A DNA stretch of 59,709 nt from a virus. Position 1 is the first letter of the stretch, and every line of letters starts with the position of its first letter. Both the position numbers and the translations under genes were made by a program. A model generated the notes under the pieces. It ran no database searches, was not told where the DNA came from, and saw nothing but the letters and a program-made list of their open reading frames with translations. Below are positions 4,557-34,658 of the stretch, in pieces. The stretch covers positions 1 to 59,709 of IMG/VR virus record IMGVR_UViG_3300024999_000116. One strand, given 5' to 3'.

Positions 4557-6299
4557 ATGACCGATCAGCAAAAGGAAAAGAAGAAACTATCCGCTCAGAA
4601 ATTAAGGGAAAAAGCGGCAGCAAAAGTTGAATTGGAATATCGTAAATCCGCTAAGAGTGTAGAGTATTTTATAGATAAATACGCCTATATTGAGGATAGG
4701 GACGTTCCCGACTTAGTTGCTAAACTTAATTTATGGGACGGTCAAAAGGAAGCGTTAAGGAAGATTATTGACAGTAAGTTGTCGATTATTCTCAAAGCGC
4801 GGCAGTTAGGTTTTACTTGGCTATCTCTTATTTACGGATTGCACGGGGTTATATTTCGACCCGGTTATTCCGTTGTTGCTCTATCTAAGAGGGAAGAGGA
4901 CGCTAAGGAACTTATTAGGCGTATATGCTTTATCCTTAGATACTTACCTTCATGGATGATTCGTCACGTTAAGGGTACTCCGAAGCAATATCCTAACCCT
5001 ACATGGGATTCAACGGTATTGTCGGTTACTATCTATCATAAAGGAAAAGAACCTGCTGTTTTTAATGCTATGTCTGCCGGTCCTGATAGTGGACGTTCCT
5101 TTACGGCGAATCTTGTAATACTTGATGAATGGGCGTTTCAGATGTTTGCTAGAGATATTTGGTCTGCTGCTTACCCTACTATTAATCGACCTACTGGTGG
5201 ACAGGTTATTGGGCTATCTACCGCTAAAAAAGGTACTTTATTTGAGGAAATATTTTGGAAGGCGTACAACGGCGAGAATACGTTTACGCCTATATTTATG
5301 CCTTGGAGTACCGACCCTAGACGTACTCAGGATTGGTATGAGCAGGTTAAAAAAGACTTACCTCATAGTTATATGGCAGAGTATCCGGCGACTCCAGAAG
5401 AGGCGTTTACTGCCGGTGAAGGTCAGTTCTTTAAAGAGTTTAGGCGTGATGTGCATGTTGTGAAACCGTTTAAGATACCTTCGTGGTGGAAAAGGTTCTG
5501 CTCGTTGGACTATGGACTTGATATGTGTTCATGTCACTGGTGGGCAGTATCGCCGGAAGGTATTATGTACGCTTATCGTGAATTATATCAACCTAATTTA
5601 ACCCTTAGTCAAGCGGCGAAGAAAATTATCTCCATGACACCTAAAGACGAGAAAATTAGTTATACGGTTGCTTCTCCTGACTTGTGGAATAGGCGACAAG
5701 AGACAGGGACAAGCGGTAGAGAAATAATGAATCGTGCCGGACTTAATAACCTCAGAAAAGCAAAGCATGACCGTGTTGCAGGTTGGAGGGCATTAAGGGA
5801 GTATCTGTTAGTTAGAGAGGAAAAGCAGGACGTTATGACCGATGAAGGTATTAATACGGTTACTGTACTCACTTCCAGATTAAAGATATTTGATAACTGT
5901 AAGAATGTTATAAGGTGCCTGCCTCTATTGGAGCATGATAAGAACAATCCAGAAGATGCGGCAGATACGCCACATGAGGTCACACATTCACCGGAAGAAT
6001 GTTTAATTGGAGAAACAATAATAAACACTCCTGATGGTGATTTTACTATTAAGGATTTAGTTGGTAAGTCTGGTAATGTATATTGTTATGACGAGGAAAA
6101 TAAGTGTATGTCAGTATCTACTTTTTCTGATGTAAGGTTAACTAAGGAGAATGTAGATGTATATGAAATAGAGTTATATGACGGAAGAAAGATTGTTGCA
6201 ACCAAAGATCATCCTGTGCTTACTAATAGCGGATGGAAGTTAGTTGGTCAACTTACTGACAATGATTATGTTATCGAGGTGGACTATGAAAGTTGTTAG
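4557..6299 (+). CDS. terL: Terminase large subunit N-part fused to N-intein
   Basis: Residues 1-481 form the ATPase and most of the nuclease of the packaging motor: KARQLGFT as Walker-A-like motif (about residue 79), LVILDEWAF as Walker B, GLSTAKKGT as coupling motif, and SLDYGLD starting the RNase-H-like nuclease. At Cys482 (codon at 6000) the sequence becomes an intein N-terminal domain of 99 residues: block A CLIGETIINTPDG and block B with the TKDHPVL motif. The frame stops at 6299 with no C-terminal intein. The missing parts are encoded at 6960-7223, so a working TerL of about 532 residues requires protein trans-splicing. The intein sits in the conserved C-terminal nuclease motif (HEVTHSPEE before, CRYAVMSRPP after). 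Confidence 0.9.
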   Translation: MTDQQKEKKKLSAQKLREKAAAKVELEYRKSAKSVEYFIDKYAYIEDRDVPDLVAKLNLWDGQKEALRKIIDSKLSIILKARQLGFTWLSLIYGLHGVIFRPGYSVVALSKREEDAKELIRRICFILRYLPSWMIRHVKGTPKQYPNPTWDSTVLSVTIYHKGKEPAVFNAMSAGPDSGRSFTANLVILDEWAFQMFARDIWSAAYPTINRPTGGQVIGLSTAKKGTLFEEIFWKAYNGENTFTPIFMPWSTDPRRTQDWYEQVKKDLPHSYMAEYPATPEEAFTAGEGQFFKEFRRDVHVVKPFKIPSWWKRFCSLDYGLDMCSCHWWAVSPEGIMYAYRELYQPNLTLSQAAKKIISMTPKDEKISYTVASPDLWNRRQETGTSGREIMNRAGLNNLRKAKHDRVAGWRALREYLLVREEKQDVMTDEGINTVTVLTSRLKIFDNCKNVIRCLPLLEHDKNNPEDAADTPHEVTHSPEECLIGETIINTPDGDFTIKDLVGKSGNVYCYDEENKCMSVSTFSDVRLTKENVDVYEIELYDGRKIVATKDHPVLTNSGWKLVGQLTDNDYVIEVDYESC

Positions 6300-9901: not shown

Positions 9902-11023
9902 TTGATAAAAACTTACAAAGTTAGACTTGAACCGAATAAAGAGCAAGAACAAAAGATGTGGCAATCTGCCGGAACCGCTAGATGGGCGTATAACTGGACG
10001 TTGGGTGTACAACAAGAGAATCGCCAAAACGGCGGTAAGTTTATTCAAGACGGTGAGTTGCGTAAAAGTTTAACTAAGTTAAAGAAAACAGAAGAATTTT
10101 GTTGGCTTAAAAAATACTCTAATAATATTACAAAACAAGCAGTTAAGGATGCTTGCAAAGCATATAAATCATTTTTTAATGGCAATAGTAAATTTCCTAA
10201 ATTTAAGAGTAAAAAGAAAAGCAGGACATCATTCTATCAAGATACATCAAATATTAAAATTAATGAAACTCATGCAAGACTAGAAAAAATAGGATGGGTA
10301 AGGTTAAGCGAAACCAATAGAATACCGCAGGGAAGATACTTTAATCCAAGGGTTACGCATGATGGAATACATTGGTTTATATCTGTTGGCGTAGAGGAAT
10401 TTCCTGTATATCCCGAACTAACCAATGAAAGTATTGGTATTGATGTAGGAATTAAGAGTCTTGCTGTAGTCAGTAACGGAATGATATTTAAAAACATTAA
10501 TAAGTCAGGCAAGGTAAAAAAAATCAAAAAGCGTTTGCGTAGGTTGCAACGTAAATGCTCACGAAAATATTATAAAAATGGAAAGGGTGTAAGTTACGAA
10601 AAGACTAGTAACATTATAAAACTTGAAAAATCAATCTTAAAAATTCACCATAAACTAAAAGACATTAAAACTGATTATATCCATAAAACTACTTCCGAGA
10701 TAGTGAAAACCAAACCTTCAAGGGTAGTTATGGAGGATTTGAATATTACAGGAATGATGAAAAATAAGTATCTATCAAAAGCTATTCAGGAACAAAGTCT
10801 ATATGAATTTCACAGGCAAATGCAGTACAAATGCGAGTGGAACGGTATAGAGTTTGTTGTAGCAGATAGGTTTTTCCCATCATCAAAACTTTGTTCGGAG
10901 TGTGGATATATTCATAGGGAATTAAAATTATCTGATAGGACTTATATCTGTCCTGCTTGTGGTAACAAGATAGATAGGGATTATCAGGCAAGTTTAAACC
11001 TATCTAAATACGAATCAGCATAA
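9902..11023 (+). CDS. tnpB: TnpB RNA-guided nuclease (IS605/IS607 OrfB)
   Basis: The 373-residue protein has an N-terminal OrfB domain and a complete RuvC site: Asp in GIDVGIKSLAV (about residue 181), Glu in VVMEDLNI, and Asp in DRDYQASLNL. A CSEC...CPAC zinc ribbon lies before the last Asp. TnpB is a nuclease guided by an omega RNA from the element's right end. No TnpA is present, so it is non-autonomous or domesticated. The start is TTG after AAAGGAGGTGATAG. It lies between the portal and scaffold genes. Confidence 0.9.
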   Translation: MIKTYKVRLEPNKEQEQKMWQSAGTARWAYNWTLGVQQENRQNGGKFIQDGELRKSLTKLKKTEEFCWLKKYSNNITKQAVKDACKAYKSFFNGNSKFPKFKSKKKSRTSFYQDTSNIKINETHARLEKIGWVRLSETNRIPQGRYFNPRVTHDGIHWFISVGVEEFPVYPELTNESIGIDVGIKSLAVVSNGMIFKNINKSGKVKKIKKRLRRLQRKCSRKYYKNGKGVSYEKTSNIIKLEKSILKIHHKLKDIKTDYIHKTTSEIVKTKPSRVVMEDLNITGMMKNKYLSKAIQEQSLYEFHRQMQYKCEWNGIEFVVADRFFPSSKLCSECGYIHRELKLSDRTYICPACGNKIDRDYQASLNLSKYESA

Positions 11024-11215
11024 AACCAATTTTAAAGGTTATGCCGATATGTACCCATAGTTAGTGGGGATTTTAAGCCTTTGGATTGCTACATCAAACA
11101 CGATTAGGATTAATCCGAAAGTGGGCAGGATGAATAAGGAAGAAAACTTTATATGTTTTTGTAACGGATAGGGTATGTGACGATGCTTTGGGCATTTAAA
11201 CTATCCCTATTTTTA
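11024..11215 (+). mobile_element. TnpB element right end, probable omega RNA
   Basis: About 190 nt after the tnpB stop hold no gene but several hairpins: AACC/GGTT at once after the stop, CCCA/TGGG around 11052-11067, and a GGATTAATCC palindrome. This is where omega RNAs and right ends lie in IS605/IS607 elements. An imperfect ATAGGG/CCCTAT hairpin with a T-run ends the stretch near 11215. The exact boundary is not determined. Confidence 0.5.
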
Positions 11216-24607: not shown

Positions 24608-27600
24608 ATGGGTTTTTTTGGAGATTTAGGCGGTAGTAAAAAAGCCAGCAATTCACCTTCCGCAACAAGGTCAAGTAGAGGATTTTTTGATTTTGACGAG
24701 AACGGAAACATTGCAGGACAGGGGCTGGCAGCAATGCCAGTCGCCCCAAAATCTCCTGCAGTTAATAATGATATGGGAAAAAGTGCATATTTTAGACTAG
24801 ATGAAAAATTAGGTGGACGCTTACCTTTTGGTTCGGAAGGACCCTCTTTATCGGATGTTGGTAAAGATATTATAAATCTTCCTAGTATAATAAATAATGC
24901 AGGTAGACAAGCAATGACATTTGGCCAATATAATAAATTCGAGGATTGGCTTGACGAAAAACTAGGTAACACAGGCGCAACGAAAGAAATGAGAGAAAAA
25001 CAAGAACCTAAGTCTTTAGTTGGTGACTTAGGGAATTTAGTCGGTTTTGTTTCCGGTTCAACAATTCCCATTGGTGGCATTGGAAAATTGGTTGATAGGG
25101 GATTAAGACTTGCTCCTGCTACATCAACATTGGGAAAATTGGGCCAAGCGGCATTAAAAAGCGGAACGGCAGGAGGCATTTATGGTGGTACAGAAGCAAC
25201 GCTAAATGGCGAATCTTTGCCTGACATAGCCAAGTTAGCGGCGACAGATGCCGCTATATTTGCAGGTGGTGACGTTGCTCTAAGAGGTGCAGGACAACTA
25301 ATAAGCAAGCTAAGAAAAACGCCGCCACCTGTTGCTGCTCCCAACACGGCAGAATCATTTAGAGAAAAAGTTAGTCGTGATACTGAAAAAAAAGGTACCT
25401 TCTCTGAAAAGGTAGATAAGTTTAATACTCAGTTTATAGACGATTTAGCACCCGCCGAAAAGGTTGAGAAGAATGTTAGGGGCAAGTTGTCTAGTGCAGA
25501 AAATAGCCTTTATAAAACAGCAAGACTATTTAGAGGATCACCTACCAGAGCAAATAATATTATACAGAAGCAACTGAAACCTACAATTGAGAGTATTGAA
25601 AGCCAAGGATTTACTACTTCTGACTTGGGCGACTACGCTTTGGCACATCACGCAAAAGACGTTAATGCCGCAGGAATTAAGTCTGGATTTACGGATGATG
25701 AAATTAATGCAGTTATAACCAAATACGGAACTCCAGAAATGGAGGCGGCGAGACAGGAGTTACTTAAATATAACGACATACTGTTAGACGAACTAGCTAC
25801 AACAGGTGTTATTGATGCAACATTGCCAGCAACACTAAAGGCTAAATGGTCAAACTATATGCCCCTTTTTAGAAGTTTTGACGATAATAAAGTTGACTTT
25901 ACTAATGGTCTAGGAAGTTCACTTGTAAATGCTACTTCGCCAATTAAAAGTTTAAAGGGTTCCAGTAGAAAAGTTATCGACCCATTAGAATCATTAATTA
26001 AAAACACATACCAAAGTATCAATGCCGCAGAGAGAAATAAGGTATCCCTACAAGTAGCAAAACTGGCACTTGATGATACTACCGGAACATTCGTTAAAAG
26101 ATTAGCACCTGGGGCAAATAAAGATAGACTTAATACTGTCTATCTTTTAGAAAACGGTAAAAAGATTTTTTTCGAGGTACAACCTGACGTTTATAAAGCA
26201 CTGAAGTCTCTTGATAAAGAGAGTAGTAACTTTTTAGTTCGACTATTACAGAAACCTGCATCATTATTAAGGGCAGGTGCTACTCTGACACCTGAGTTTA
26301 GTTTTAGAAACCCTGTGCGTGATGTTGTTTCAGCGTTCGTTACTTCTAAATCAGGATTTAACCCTATAACTGATTTTCCGGTTGCTTTTTTTGAGGCACT
26401 AACCAAGGGTAAGGGTATTAATGTTAAAGGAGTTGGAATTGTTAAGCCAAAAGGACTATATGATAATTTTTTAGCCGATAATGGCGGTTATGGCAACATA
26501 CTTTCTATGGATAGAAAACTGCAACAACAGGCACTAAAGGAAATTAGTAAAGGGACGATTAAGGACAAATTCGTCGATATTGCAAGTGGAAAGTCTCTAA
26601 TAAAAGTGCTTAGGGGAATTGCCGATACCACAGAAACAGCAACTAAATTAGGCGAGTATAGGGCGGCACTCAGAAGTGTGGTAAGTAGACCTGAGGCGGC
26701 GTATAGAGCGAGAGACGTTATGGACTTCTCTCGTGCCGGAAGTTCTGTTCGTGAGGCTAATAAAATTGTTGCTTTTCTAAATGCAAACATTCAAGGTAAG
26801 TCGAAACTTATTAGAGCGTTCAAGGAAAATCCAACTGGTTTTACTGCTAAAGCGATAACTTCTATCTCATTGCCAACTGTCGGAGTCTATTTGATGCAGA
26901 AAAATATGGCTAACGATAAGCAGAAGGAATTAATCGCAGATGCCCCCAACTGGCTTAAAAGTAGTTTTTGGCTAATGCCTATACCTGGAACCGATCAGGT
27001 AGCAAGGATACCTAAACCGTTTGACCTAGCACCTGTTTTTGCTAACTCAGTTGAACGGATGATGAAATATGTTGAGGATAACGATCCGGATGCTTTTGAT
27101 GGATATATCAGGGAAACATTCGGAACAATGTCTATACCAACCATGATTACCGGCATAATACCGTTAATTGAGGGTATGGCAAACTATTCATTCTTCCGTC
27201 AAGGACCAATTATACCGCAACGAGAACAGTTTATTAATTTCTCAGACCAGTACGATACTAACACCTCCGAGGTAGCAAAAAAAATAGGAAAAGAAATAGA
27301 CAGTGTGACGGGTGGCGAAGGTACGTTTAAAAACTTCGGTTCCCCACGTATTATTGATAACACTATTCGCGGACTTACTGCTGGACTTGGTTCGCTTGCT
27401 ACCGGCGCAATGGATCAGATACTAGAAAGTACAGGAATGGTTGACGAAAAAAACAAACCAACCAGAAAACCGAGCGAGTTGCCGATAGTTAAAGCATTAT
27501 TGGTTAGCGATACAGGAAGTGGTCAGTCAATGACAGACTTATATAAGTTAAGAGATAAACTTATGCGAGAAAAAGGTTCTGCTGAAATAGGGAAAAACTC

Positions 27601-27799
27601 TTTTAAAGGCAAGGCAGAATTAAGGTTTGTAACGAAGGCAACGGACGATATAGGAAAAATTACTAAGATTATGCGACAAGTTGAAAACAACCCCAAAATC
27701 AATAGTGACATTAAGCGAAAGAGGTTGGACGAATTGAATAAGCGGAGAAATACTATAGCATCAAGTGTAATGGAACGCATTAATTCGGCTAAAAAATAA
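24608..27799 (+). CDS. Large internal virion protein with LPD38-like domain
   Basis: The 1063-residue protein has a Gly/Ala-rich amphipathic region near residues 150-215, an extended helical part (HHAKDVNAAGIKSGFTDDEI; WSNYMPLFRSFDDN) and a region resembling large polyvalent protein-associated domains (FRNPVRDVVSAFVTS; DVMDFSRAGS). It probably enters the cell with the DNA or forms the inner channel. No lytic transglycosylase motif is evident. Confidence 0.6.
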   Translation: MGFFGDLGGSKKASNSPSATRSSRGFFDFDENGNIAGQGLAAMPVAPKSPAVNNDMGKSAYFRLDEKLGGRLPFGSEGPSLSDVGKDIINLPSIINNAGRQAMTFGQYNKFEDWLDEKLGNTGATKEMREKQEPKSLVGDLGNLVGFVSGSTIPIGGIGKLVDRGLRLAPATSTLGKLGQAALKSGTAGGIYGGTEATLNGESLPDIAKLAATDAAIFAGGDVALRGAGQLISKLRKTPPPVAAPNTAESFREKVSRDTEKKGTFSEKVDKFNTQFIDDLAPAEKVEKNVRGKLSSAENSLYKTARLFRGSPTRANNIIQKQLKPTIESIESQGFTTSDLGDYALAHHAKDVNAAGIKSGFTDDEINAVITKYGTPEMEAARQELLKYNDILLDELATTGVIDATLPATLKAKWSNYMPLFRSFDDNKVDFTNGLGSSLVNATSPIKSLKGSSRKVIDPLESLIKNTYQSINAAERNKVSLQVAKLALDDTTGTFVKRLAPGANKDRLNTVYLLENGKKIFFEVQPDVYKALKSLDKESSNFLVRLLQKPASLLRAGATLTPEFSFRNPVRDVVSAFVTSKSGFNPITDFPVAFFEALTKGKGINVKGVGIVKPKGLYDNFLADNGGYGNILSMDRKLQQQALKEISKGTIKDKFVDIASGKSLIKVLRGIADTTETATKLGEYRAALRSVVSRPEAAYRARDVMDFSRAGSSVREANKIVAFLNANIQGKSKLIRAFKENPTGFTAKAITSISLPTVGVYLMQKNMANDKQKELIADAPNWLKSSFWLMPIPGTDQVARIPKPFDLAPVFANSVERMMKYVEDNDPDAFDGYIRETFGTMSIPTMITGIIPLIEGMANYSFFRQGPIIPQREQFINFSDQYDTNTSEVAKKIGKEIDSVTGGEGTFKNFGSPRIIDNTIRGLTAGLGSLATGAMDQILESTGMVDEKNKPTRKPSELPIVKALLVSDTGSGQSMTDLYKLRDKLMREKGSAEIGKNSFKGKAELRFVTKATDDIGKITKIMRQVENNPKINSDIKRKRLDELNKRRNTIASSVMERINSAKK

Positions 27800-28029: not shown

Positions 28030-28233
28030 TTAATTTTTATCAACAAACTCCAATATTTCTCCTGGGTTACATTCTAATGCAAAGCATAGACGCTCTATAA
28101 CTTCCAGGGAAACATATTGATTTGTGTTTAATTTGGCCATAGTACCGCCAGATATTTTAGCTTGTTTCATTATATCTTGTTTCTTTATATTTCTATCAAT
28201 CAGTATTTTTTGAAATAGTTTATAACTAACCAT
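28030..28233 (-). CDS. XRE regulator, YozG-like
   Basis: The 67-residue protein is a Cro/CI-type helix-turn-helix (IKKQDIMKQAKISGGTMAKL) ending in CNPGEILEFV, as in YozG-type regulators. It is divergent from the RAMP-like operon, and a leftward promoter (TTGTCA-17-TAATAT) overlaps the intergenic region. It probably controls that operon and itself. Confidence 0.8.
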   Translation of the reverse strand: MVSYKLFQKILIDRNIKKQDIMKQAKISGGTMAKLNTNQYVSLEVIERLCFALECNPGEILEFVDKN

Positions 28234-28322: not shown

Positions 28323-28350
28323 TTGACTTGTAAATTCAATATGTTATAAT
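28323..28350 (+). promoter_or_regulatory. Promoter of the RAMP-HNH-array operon
   Basis: TTGACT (28323-28328), a 16-nt spacer ending in TGT and TATAAT (28345-28350) make a strong extended -10 promoter 40 nt before the gene. Confidence 0.8.
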
Positions 28351-28390
28351 AATATATAAGATGTTATAGATTGTATATAGGAGGTTGGGC

Positions 28391-29023
28391 ATGGGCAAAA
28401 ACATTTTAACGGCAACAATCGAAATAAAAGGAATTAGACCTCTGTTATGGCATGTATTTGGTCCTGATTCTCTGCCGCTTGAAAAACAGGAGAGGACAGG
28501 AGTTGCCGGACACGATCCGGAGGAATGGCGCAAAACTTATGTAGCAACCAAGAGTGGACAACTATATTTGCCTGGTTCTTATTTTTTCGGAACCTATATT
28601 GCAGGTGCTAAGTTTATTAAGAAGGGTAAGGGTTCAATTCAAAGCATGGTATCAGCAACATTGCAGGTACTCGATGATAAGGTTTTGATTAACAGACACC
28701 TACCGGAAGATATTCACGAAAAACCGCATAAGTATTACAATGCTGACGAAGAATTGGTTTATATTGACGTTCGCTCAGTACGTAATCCGTCAACCAAGGC
28801 AAGAAACATTCGTTATCGCGTTGCAACTTGTCATGGATGGGAATGTAAATTTTCGATAATGTTTGACAAGACGGTTGTTAGTCGCCAGGAAATGCACGCA
28901 GCCATTATTGATGCAGGTAAGTTATCCGGCATTGGTGATGGTCGCTCTGTGGGATACGGAAGGTTTGAAGTGTTATCTTTTGAAATACAGGAGGAAGATA
29001 ATGCCAAGGAAAAGACCTCCTAA
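28391..29023 (+). CDS. RAMP/Cas7-like protein of the array operon
   Basis: The 210-residue protein opens with a ferredoxin-like strand (LTATIEIKGIRPLLWHVFG, from about residue 6). Near its C-terminus it has a glycine-rich loop, GIGDGRSVGYGR (about residues 180-191). Both are hallmarks of RAMP-type RNA-binding proteins such as Cas7 and Csm3. Proteins of this type occur in other phages without CRISPR genes. It is the first gene of an operon with an HNH gene and two pentamer arrays, so it is the best candidate to coat the array RNAs. ATG 28391 follows AGGAGG. RNA binding is inferred, not shown. Confidence 0.65.
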   Translation: MGKNILTATIEIKGIRPLLWHVFGPDSLPLEKQERTGVAGHDPEEWRKTYVATKSGQLYLPGSYFFGTYIAGAKFIKKGKGSIQSMVSATLQVLDDKVLINRHLPEDIHEKPHKYYNADEELVYIDVRSVRNPSTKARNIRYRVATCHGWECKFSIMFDKTVVSRQEMHAAIIDAGKLSGIGDGRSVGYGRFEVLSFEIQEEDNAKEKTS

Positions 29024-29291
29024 AGAAATATGGCAAAAGTTAAGGATAATAGTCTGGAATCGTGACGGAGGTAAATGTAAACACTGTCACGAACCAGTTG
29101 ACTTAAATAAATGTCACATAGATCATATTCGTTCTGGTAAACTAGGAACCAATAAACTAAACAATCTTAGAACTCTATGTCGTTGCTGTCATGTTTTGCG
29201 TGATGATGGGCGGCATAGGGGGATGATTAGTAAAGCACTTAAGGATGGTATTATTCCTCCGAATTGGCGGGAGTTAGTTTGGGGTGATTAA
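29001..29291 (+). CDS. Small HNH endonuclease of the array operon
   Basis: The 96-residue protein has a complete HNH site: CKHCHEPV, CHIDHIRSGK and LCRCCHVLR. It starts at ATG 29001 behind AGGAGGAAG and overlaps the RAMP-like gene by 23 nt, implying coupled translation. Its stop lies 10 nt before the first array. It may be the effector nuclease of the system or an unrelated passenger. Confidence 0.8.
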   Translation: MPRKRPPKEIWQKLRIIVWNRDGGKCKHCHEPVDLNKCHIDHIRSGKLGTNKLNNLRTLCRCCHVLRDDGRHRGMISKALKDGIIPPNWRELVWGD

Positions 29292-29300
29292 TATATATGC

Positions 29301-29395
29301 GGCGGGGACTGATTTGGAGTGGAGAGATATGTTTAGGTGTGGTGAGTTGGGGACCGGCGTGGTGCGGTTAGGTAGGGCGAGGTAAGATAGGACGA
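29301..29395 (+). repeat. Pentamer array 1 (GGNNN period)
   Basis: Nineteen consecutive 5-nt units begin at 29301 with no slip in register. All 19 start with G; the second base is G in 13, A in 4 and T in 2; the last three bases vary. Counting from GATTT at 29311 there are 17 units, matching array 2. Units 1-3 (GATTT, GGAGT, GGAGA) resemble those of array 2; later units differ. It lies in the 3' untranslated part of the RAMP-HNH operon and looks like a segmented guide RNA. Confidence 0.85.
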
Positions 29396-29397
29396 TA

Positions 29398-29458
29398 TTA
29401 TTGAAACAGGGGTAAAACCCTGTTCGCAGGAGGTGACTGTCCTGCGCTGATGAGATAA
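29398..29458 (+). ncRNA. Type II hammerhead ribozyme
   Basis: All core elements are present in circularly permuted order. The stem II strand 29398-29402 is followed by GAAA (29403-29406). Stem III pairs 29406-29411 with 29418-29423. U29424 is the cleavage-site base. Stem I pairs 29425-29431 with 29440-29446. CUGAUGA is at 29447-29453. Stem II closes through 29454-29458. The predicted cut is between 29424 and 29425 (GUU triplet), which would separate the two array RNAs. Confidence 0.85.
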
Positions 29459-29472
29459 GTTAAATAATACGA

Positions 29473-29557
29473 GTTTTGGAGTGGAGGGGTCGGGTCCGGA
29501 ATGGAGTGTCCCGGCGGGGATAGGTATGGTGAGGCGGGGTATGTCTAGGCGAGGGTA
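29473..29557 (+). repeat. Pentamer array 2 (GGNNN period)
   Basis: Seventeen 5-nt units start with GTTTT at 29473, then GGAGT and GGAGG. Every unit starts with G; the second base is G in 14 and T in 3. The three remaining bases are variable and after unit 3 differ from array 1. It runs into the operon terminator. After ribozyme cleavage its RNA would carry a 5' stem I remnant and end in the terminator hairpin. Confidence 0.85.
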
Positions 29558-29560
29558 ATA

Positions 29561-29596
29561 AAAAATAACCACATCTTAATCGATGTGGTTATTTTT
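29561..29596. terminator. Terminator of the array operon
   Basis: A perfect 15-bp stem (29561-29575 with 29582-29596) has A-rich 5' and T-rich 3' arms. It is bidirectional and overlaps the 3' end of the leftward XRE gene. Confidence 0.9.
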
Positions 29597-29801
29597 CGTC
29601 CGACACGTATTCTAGTAAGTCGCCTGGGTGACATTTAAGGGCAGTACAAATTCTATCTATTACCGACACGTCAATTCTGGTGATGTTTCCGTTATACATT
29701 GCATACAGAGTATTCTTATTAACTCCGCTTAACTCGTGTAGTTTAGGAACTTTCATTCTATCTCTGTCGAACATAATTTTGTCTAAATTAAATTTTATCA
29801 A
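29589..29801 (-). CDS. XRE regulator, YozG-like (second copy)
   Basis: The 70-residue helix-turn-helix protein (MKVPKLHELSGVNKNTLYAM; ending CHPGDLLEYV) has the same fold and ending as the XRE protein at 28030-28233. TTG 29801 with GGAGGTG at a good distance is the likely start. The two regulators bracket the array operon, and this one is divergent from the next rightward unit. Confidence 0.8.
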   Translation of the reverse strand: MIKFNLDKIMFDRDRMKVPKLHELSGVNKNTLYAMYNGNITRIDVSVIDRICTALKCHPGDLLEYVSDEK

Positions 29802-34582: not shown

Positions 34583-34658
34583 TGGCTGTGAAGGTAGGTC
34601 TCGAACCTACGACAAGTTGATTAACAGTCAACCACTCTACCTACTAAACTACTTCACA
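34583..34658 (-). tRNA. tRNA-Asn (GTT)
   Basis: The 76-nt cloverleaf has a 7-bp acceptor TGTGAAG/CTTCACA, discriminator G and encoded CCA. The anticodon arm is GTTGA-CTGTTAA-TCAAC with anticodon GTT, the T arm GTAGG-TTCGAGA-CCTAC. The D stem (GTTT/GAGT) relies on G-U pairs but the GG of the D loop is kept. It has its own promoter and terminator and is probably functional. Confidence 0.92.

Follow-up and report, generated by a model that had tools for sequence, protein, structure and literature searches.

Within the window, by which we mean the whole 59,709-nt stretch analysed (IMG/VR virus record IMGVR_UViG_3300024999_000116), one gene cassette is almost certainly a phage-borne VIPR system, with two G-rich arrays as its segmented guide RNAs (vrRNAs). 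Reported only recently, VIPR reads DNA by means of a segmented guide, a mechanism that may predate CRISPR. As described in a 2026 preprint (PMC13142463), it consists of Vipr, a RAMP protein carried by phages, together with a small accessory gene and vrRNAs in which GGY alternates with NN; the NN dinucleotides pair with double-stranded DNA and one target base is skipped between them. A literature search found no papers on VIPR besides this one. The preprint also describes arrays of 9–16 units or similar, accessory genes vap1–6, predicted nucleases in some VIPR types together with a proposed link to host defence and, for phage SUSP1, arrays on both sides of vipr (PMC13142463). The system in the window is of this known kind. 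Judged from sequence, it offers a putative natural guide–target pair, and independent support for the pairing code, in a clade that carries an HNH nuclease gene and hammerhead ribozymes between guides. The cassette contains the following features:

28323–28350, + strand: promoter-like site (TTGACT-16-TATAAT, 11/12 to consensus, a consensus match only), about 40 nt 5′ of the vipr start
28391–29023, + strand: vipr, encoding a RAMP-family protein of 210 aa with a glycine-rich (G-rich) loop
29001–29291, + strand: HNH-nuclease accessory gene (vap-like), 96 aa (Pfam HNH, E = 1.7e-5)
29301–29395, + strand: vrRNA1 (array 1), 19 GGYNN-type units, position and register conserved in relatives
29399–29464, + strand: predicted type II hammerhead ribozyme (Rfam RF02276, E = 6.9e-5; 35.8 bits, slightly below the gathering score of 37)
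29473–29557, + strand: vrRNA2 (array 2), 17 units, matching an LPD38 gene of other phages
29561–29596, + strand: hairpin with a T-rich 3′ side (15-bp stem, −18.5 kcal/mol, z −8.7)

The protein encoded by vipr is a RAMP homologue related to SUSP1 Vipr. Its sole convincing PDB sequence match is entry 36pp, 'SUSP1 Vipr protein' (phmmer, E = 2.9e-6), the 168-column alignment of a 12-relative profile with SUSP1 Vipr has E = 4.9e-13 (hhalign), and both proteins fall in phrog_4652. The AlphaFold model (pLDDT 83.6) matches Csm/Cas7 CRISPR backbone subunits (E = 3.5e-9). Similarity of Vipr to Cas6/Csm4 is far under the cut-offs. As in Class 1 CRISPR effectors (Csm3/Cas7 backbone), the RAMP fold is likely to hold a guide at regular intervals; unlike in those systems, the window has neither a repeat–spacer array nor cas effector genes, and its guide would be read in dinucleotides, whereas a CRISPR guide is read near-continuously. 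The first-pass annotation was correct that the arrays are not CRISPR repeats, since 5-nt units stand in place of repeats.

The 5′ end of the HNH gene overlaps the 3′ end of vipr, both genes lie directly upstream of the arrays, and a small HNH gene accompanies vipr in nearly all relatives of the clade. The cassette shares with SUSP1 VIPR the Vipr family, an adjoining small accessory gene, GGYNN arrays beside vipr with hypervariable NN, and apparent targets in other phages by a 1-nt skip. It differs in that the accessory gene encodes an HNH nuclease and is not the SUSP1 vap, Vipr is only ~28% identical, unit positions 2–3 are looser, and the arrays are parted by a hammerhead, whereas SUSP1 has pseudoknot tails. 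The hairpin at 29561–29596 is probably a terminator; a consensus terminator scan did not flag it. On the opposite strand, the cassette is bordered by two genes for Cro/C1-type HTH regulators (28030–28233 and 29589–29801, both −), and DNA related to the second of these also adjoins vipr in the related locus L001.

Both arrays keep a 5-nt register without a slip, as the first-pass annotation had noticed: position 1 is G in 36/36 units, 27/36 begin with GG, and the observed score of either array was reached by 0/5000 dinucleotide-preserving shuffles. The two score 35.1 and 33.6, against 8.3 for the best run elsewhere in the window. The 17 units first counted in each hold for array 2 and for array 1 from GATTT (29311); the register of array 1 begins two units further 5′ (GGCGG GGACT) and has 19 units. 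The arrays were also rightly judged non-coding. Loss of the register in relatives had been named beforehand as grounds for rejecting a guide; it is kept beside the homologous gene in most of ~40 related loci, and the same scan applied to SUSP1 recovers the arrays flanking vipr on both sides.

Across 45 related arrays (786 units), G occupies position 1 in 95% and position 2 in 88%, position 3 is C/T in 88%, and positions 4 and 5 are nearly random (entropy 1.94 and 1.97 bits). Because positions 1–3 are fixed and only 4–5 are free, the repeat unit is GGY+NN with the guide at positions 4–5, and not G/GG followed by three variable bases. The first-pass idea of a segmented guide therefore stands in its broad form, with a RAMP-like gene of Cas7-like fold adjoining the arrays, but not in its details of reading: Vipr probably does hold the constant bases, as proposed for a protein gripping each G/GG, but it would leave two bases readable where three had been suggested. 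That proposal, in which target triplets are read at 5-nt intervals, draws on the 5-nt period itself and on position 3 not being strictly fixed in the window (C/T in 26/36 units, A in 9/36). Against the pyrimidine preference of the clade at this position, and given the target searches below, we consider it very unlikely.

GG every 5 nt could in principle stack, and a structural or regulatory G-rich RNA (a two-tetrad G-quadruplex), or a decayed repeat lacking guide function, might be imagined instead. However, the roughly one quarter of window units without a second G do not break the register, and close relatives whose vipr and HNH genes align differ completely at the variable positions. In the nearest relative, L001 (Vipr 86% identical), DNA aligns with window positions 28388–29311, up to the start of array 1, but not in the arrays, indicating that the machinery is conserved but the guides are replaced. 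Fixed-rule matches to genes of other phages, given below, likewise argue against an RNA of this kind; its probability is close to negligible, and the G-quadruplex that had been offered as an alternative is not needed.

By sequence and covariation, the element between the two guide arrays is a hammerhead ribozyme. Like RF02276 hammerheads, it combines an open stem II with stems I and III and a core of GAAA and CUGAUGA; unlike them, it is placed between guide arrays, a position in which it can act in guide-RNA processing, and has GUU in place of GUC at the predicted cut site (between 29424 and 29425, after T29424). Across nine copies, pairing is retained at 13/13 positions of stems I and III, at ten of them despite changes on both sides; shifting the pairing by one base lowers retention to ~40%. 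A hammerhead also lies at the equivalent position in L001, and the Marinithermofilum locus has seven above-threshold copies among its arrays. Cleavage should part the transcript into two vrRNAs. The preprint mentions VIPR arrays interspersed with hammerhead ribozymes (PMC13142463, fig. S19), which the arrangement in the window resembles. Other relatives have different hairpins between their arrays: those in L003 (4690–4735) and, similarly, L006 are of a non-hammerhead kind without a match in Rfam, and are possibly another vrRNA tail or processing element.

We searched 2.9 million viral contigs with ten dinucleotides of vrRNA2 (20 fixed bases) under a 1-nt skip. Five virus contigs matched, all in one gene; they are close relatives and count as one event. 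The match lies in an LPD38-domain gene of another phage group and covers 23/24 bases over units 1–12, with the skipped bases on codon third (wobble) positions (target peptide DFAGRPIVPGYMED). Units 1 and 3 pair fully and unit 2 half, and the unmatched part is the 3′ end of the array, so that the first three units are not simply the shared handle that the first-pass annotation had likened them to. The triplet search suggested in that annotation, run with a seven-unit pattern from the array, had no match in viral contigs, whereas the dinucleotide pattern had five. Three exact patterns of vrRNA1 also found no target there. As the vrRNA1 and triplet patterns (18–21 fixed bases) gave no matches, such matches are not common by chance.

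The window itself encodes a homologue of the target protein, an LPD38-domain protein (24608–27799; 23% identity, E = 9e-42) that reads FRQGPIIPQREQF at the target site, so that the phage's own copy differs where the guide would pair. Within the window, the best score under the 1-nt rule is at most 11 for either guide, against 21 for the vrRNA2 target. We infer that vrRNA2 acts against a competing phage group through its LPD38-domain gene, the diverged homologue carried by the phage itself not being a target. No target was found in 113 genomes for vrRNA2, nor for vrRNA1 with up to three mismatches, none in related genomes for the vrRNAs of L011 and L007, and no VIPR in the phages targeted by vrRNA2.

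To compare pairing rules, 88 array-like guides were matched all-against-all to 1.36 Mb of fetched DNA in which the arrays had been masked, using four skip rules and two controls; the vrRNA2 match (score 21) is necessarily part of this set. The top score, 22, belongs to a match that had not been preselected by guide pattern: a vrRNA of locus L049 matches a portal-like gene of the L056 phage at 26/28 bases over 14 units, again wobble-phased, and at the guide site the homologous gene of L049 itself shows three mismatched units in a row. Three 1-nt-skip scores reached 20–22, compared with maxima of 17 for 0-nt and 15 for 2-nt skips, and of 16 and 15 for controls with shuffled and reversed order. 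With a 3-nt skip, that is, dinucleotides at 5-nt intervals, the sole score above 16 was 18 and paired an array with a related VIPR locus, which also speaks against reading at that interval. The portal match therefore supports, by sequence, the same 1-nt skip rule as the vrRNA2 match, and the rule finds support without use of the original data. The third match (score 20) is that of an Oscillochloris vrRNA; it does not fall within a long ORF and counts as supportive only.

Two further observations were set aside. In this comparison, a vrRNA of L056 matched the L049 contig with a score of 17, which equals the 0-nt-skip maximum and falls in no convincing gene, and mutual targeting is not claimed. 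In a codon-phase test of guide dinucleotides, codon positions 1–2 (either strand) were best in 31/50 arrays, compared with a mean of 31.2 after shuffling bases within unit positions 4 and 5; because shuffling gives the same count, the signal is one of base composition and was not used as evidence.

Type III Csm subunits, which are the top structural matches of Vipr, bind RNA targets, and both clear targets lie in coding sequence. A VIPR guide acting on messenger RNA would agree with these points. HNH proteins, such as the one encoded by the accessory gene, are typically DNA nucleases. Moreover, both clear vrRNAs have coding-strand sense, so that they could pair with the template DNA strand only and not with mRNA. 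SUSP1 VIPR, according to the preprint, binds double-stranded DNA and represses from either strand (PMC13142463). An RNA target is accordingly highly improbable, and DNA remains our preferred target of the VIPR guides.

We propose that a single transcript, initiated at the promoter-like site (28323), would span vipr, the HNH gene and the two arrays up to the end of the hairpin at 29596, and that the hammerhead would cut it between the arrays to release two vrRNAs. By analogy with SUSP1, Vipr subunits would grip the units by their constant GGY, leaving exposed the two bases that follow. These dinucleotides would pair with double-stranded DNA in such a way that a single target base is passed over between one pair and the next. 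Where the target is coding DNA, that base would be the wobble base, in which case synonymous changes would give no escape. The HNH protein may then convert binding into DNA cleavage. Many of the loci with an HNH gene come from virus records, and the two clear targets are virion-type genes belonging to other phages. This agrees with phage–phage conflict, in a sample of loci biased by the collections searched. A fuller proposal is that the HNH protein cuts DNA at sites set by hammerhead-released vrRNAs, forming a minimal two-protein programmable nuclease used in phage–phage warfare against virion genes (LPD38, portal) and not in silencing or host defence; we regard this as quite possible, just short of probable. 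If the HNH protein does cut, the system would be a very small programmable DNA nuclease of 210 + 96 residues.

Further IMG/VR virus contigs carry the same Vipr family, as do genomes of Pelotomaculum, Marinithermofilum, Paenibacillus, Chloroflexales and others; among named phages no close Vipr relatives were found beyond the SUSP1-like group. The genome of Oscillochloris sp. ZM17-4 (G014, carrying locus L010) has four vipr copies, two of them with an internal stop codon.

Elsewhere in the window, a TnpB-like gene (9902–11023, +) has OrfB_IS605 and Cas12f1-like TNB domains. Directly 3′ of it lies a RAGATH-18 RNA (11078–11141, +), which may be the guide-RNA end of an element of IS605 type. The N-terminal part of an ORF at 4557–6299 (+) is terminase-like, and an intein splicing domain lies close to the end of this ORF; a phage-borne tRNA-Asn with anticodon GTT is present at 34583–34658 (−).
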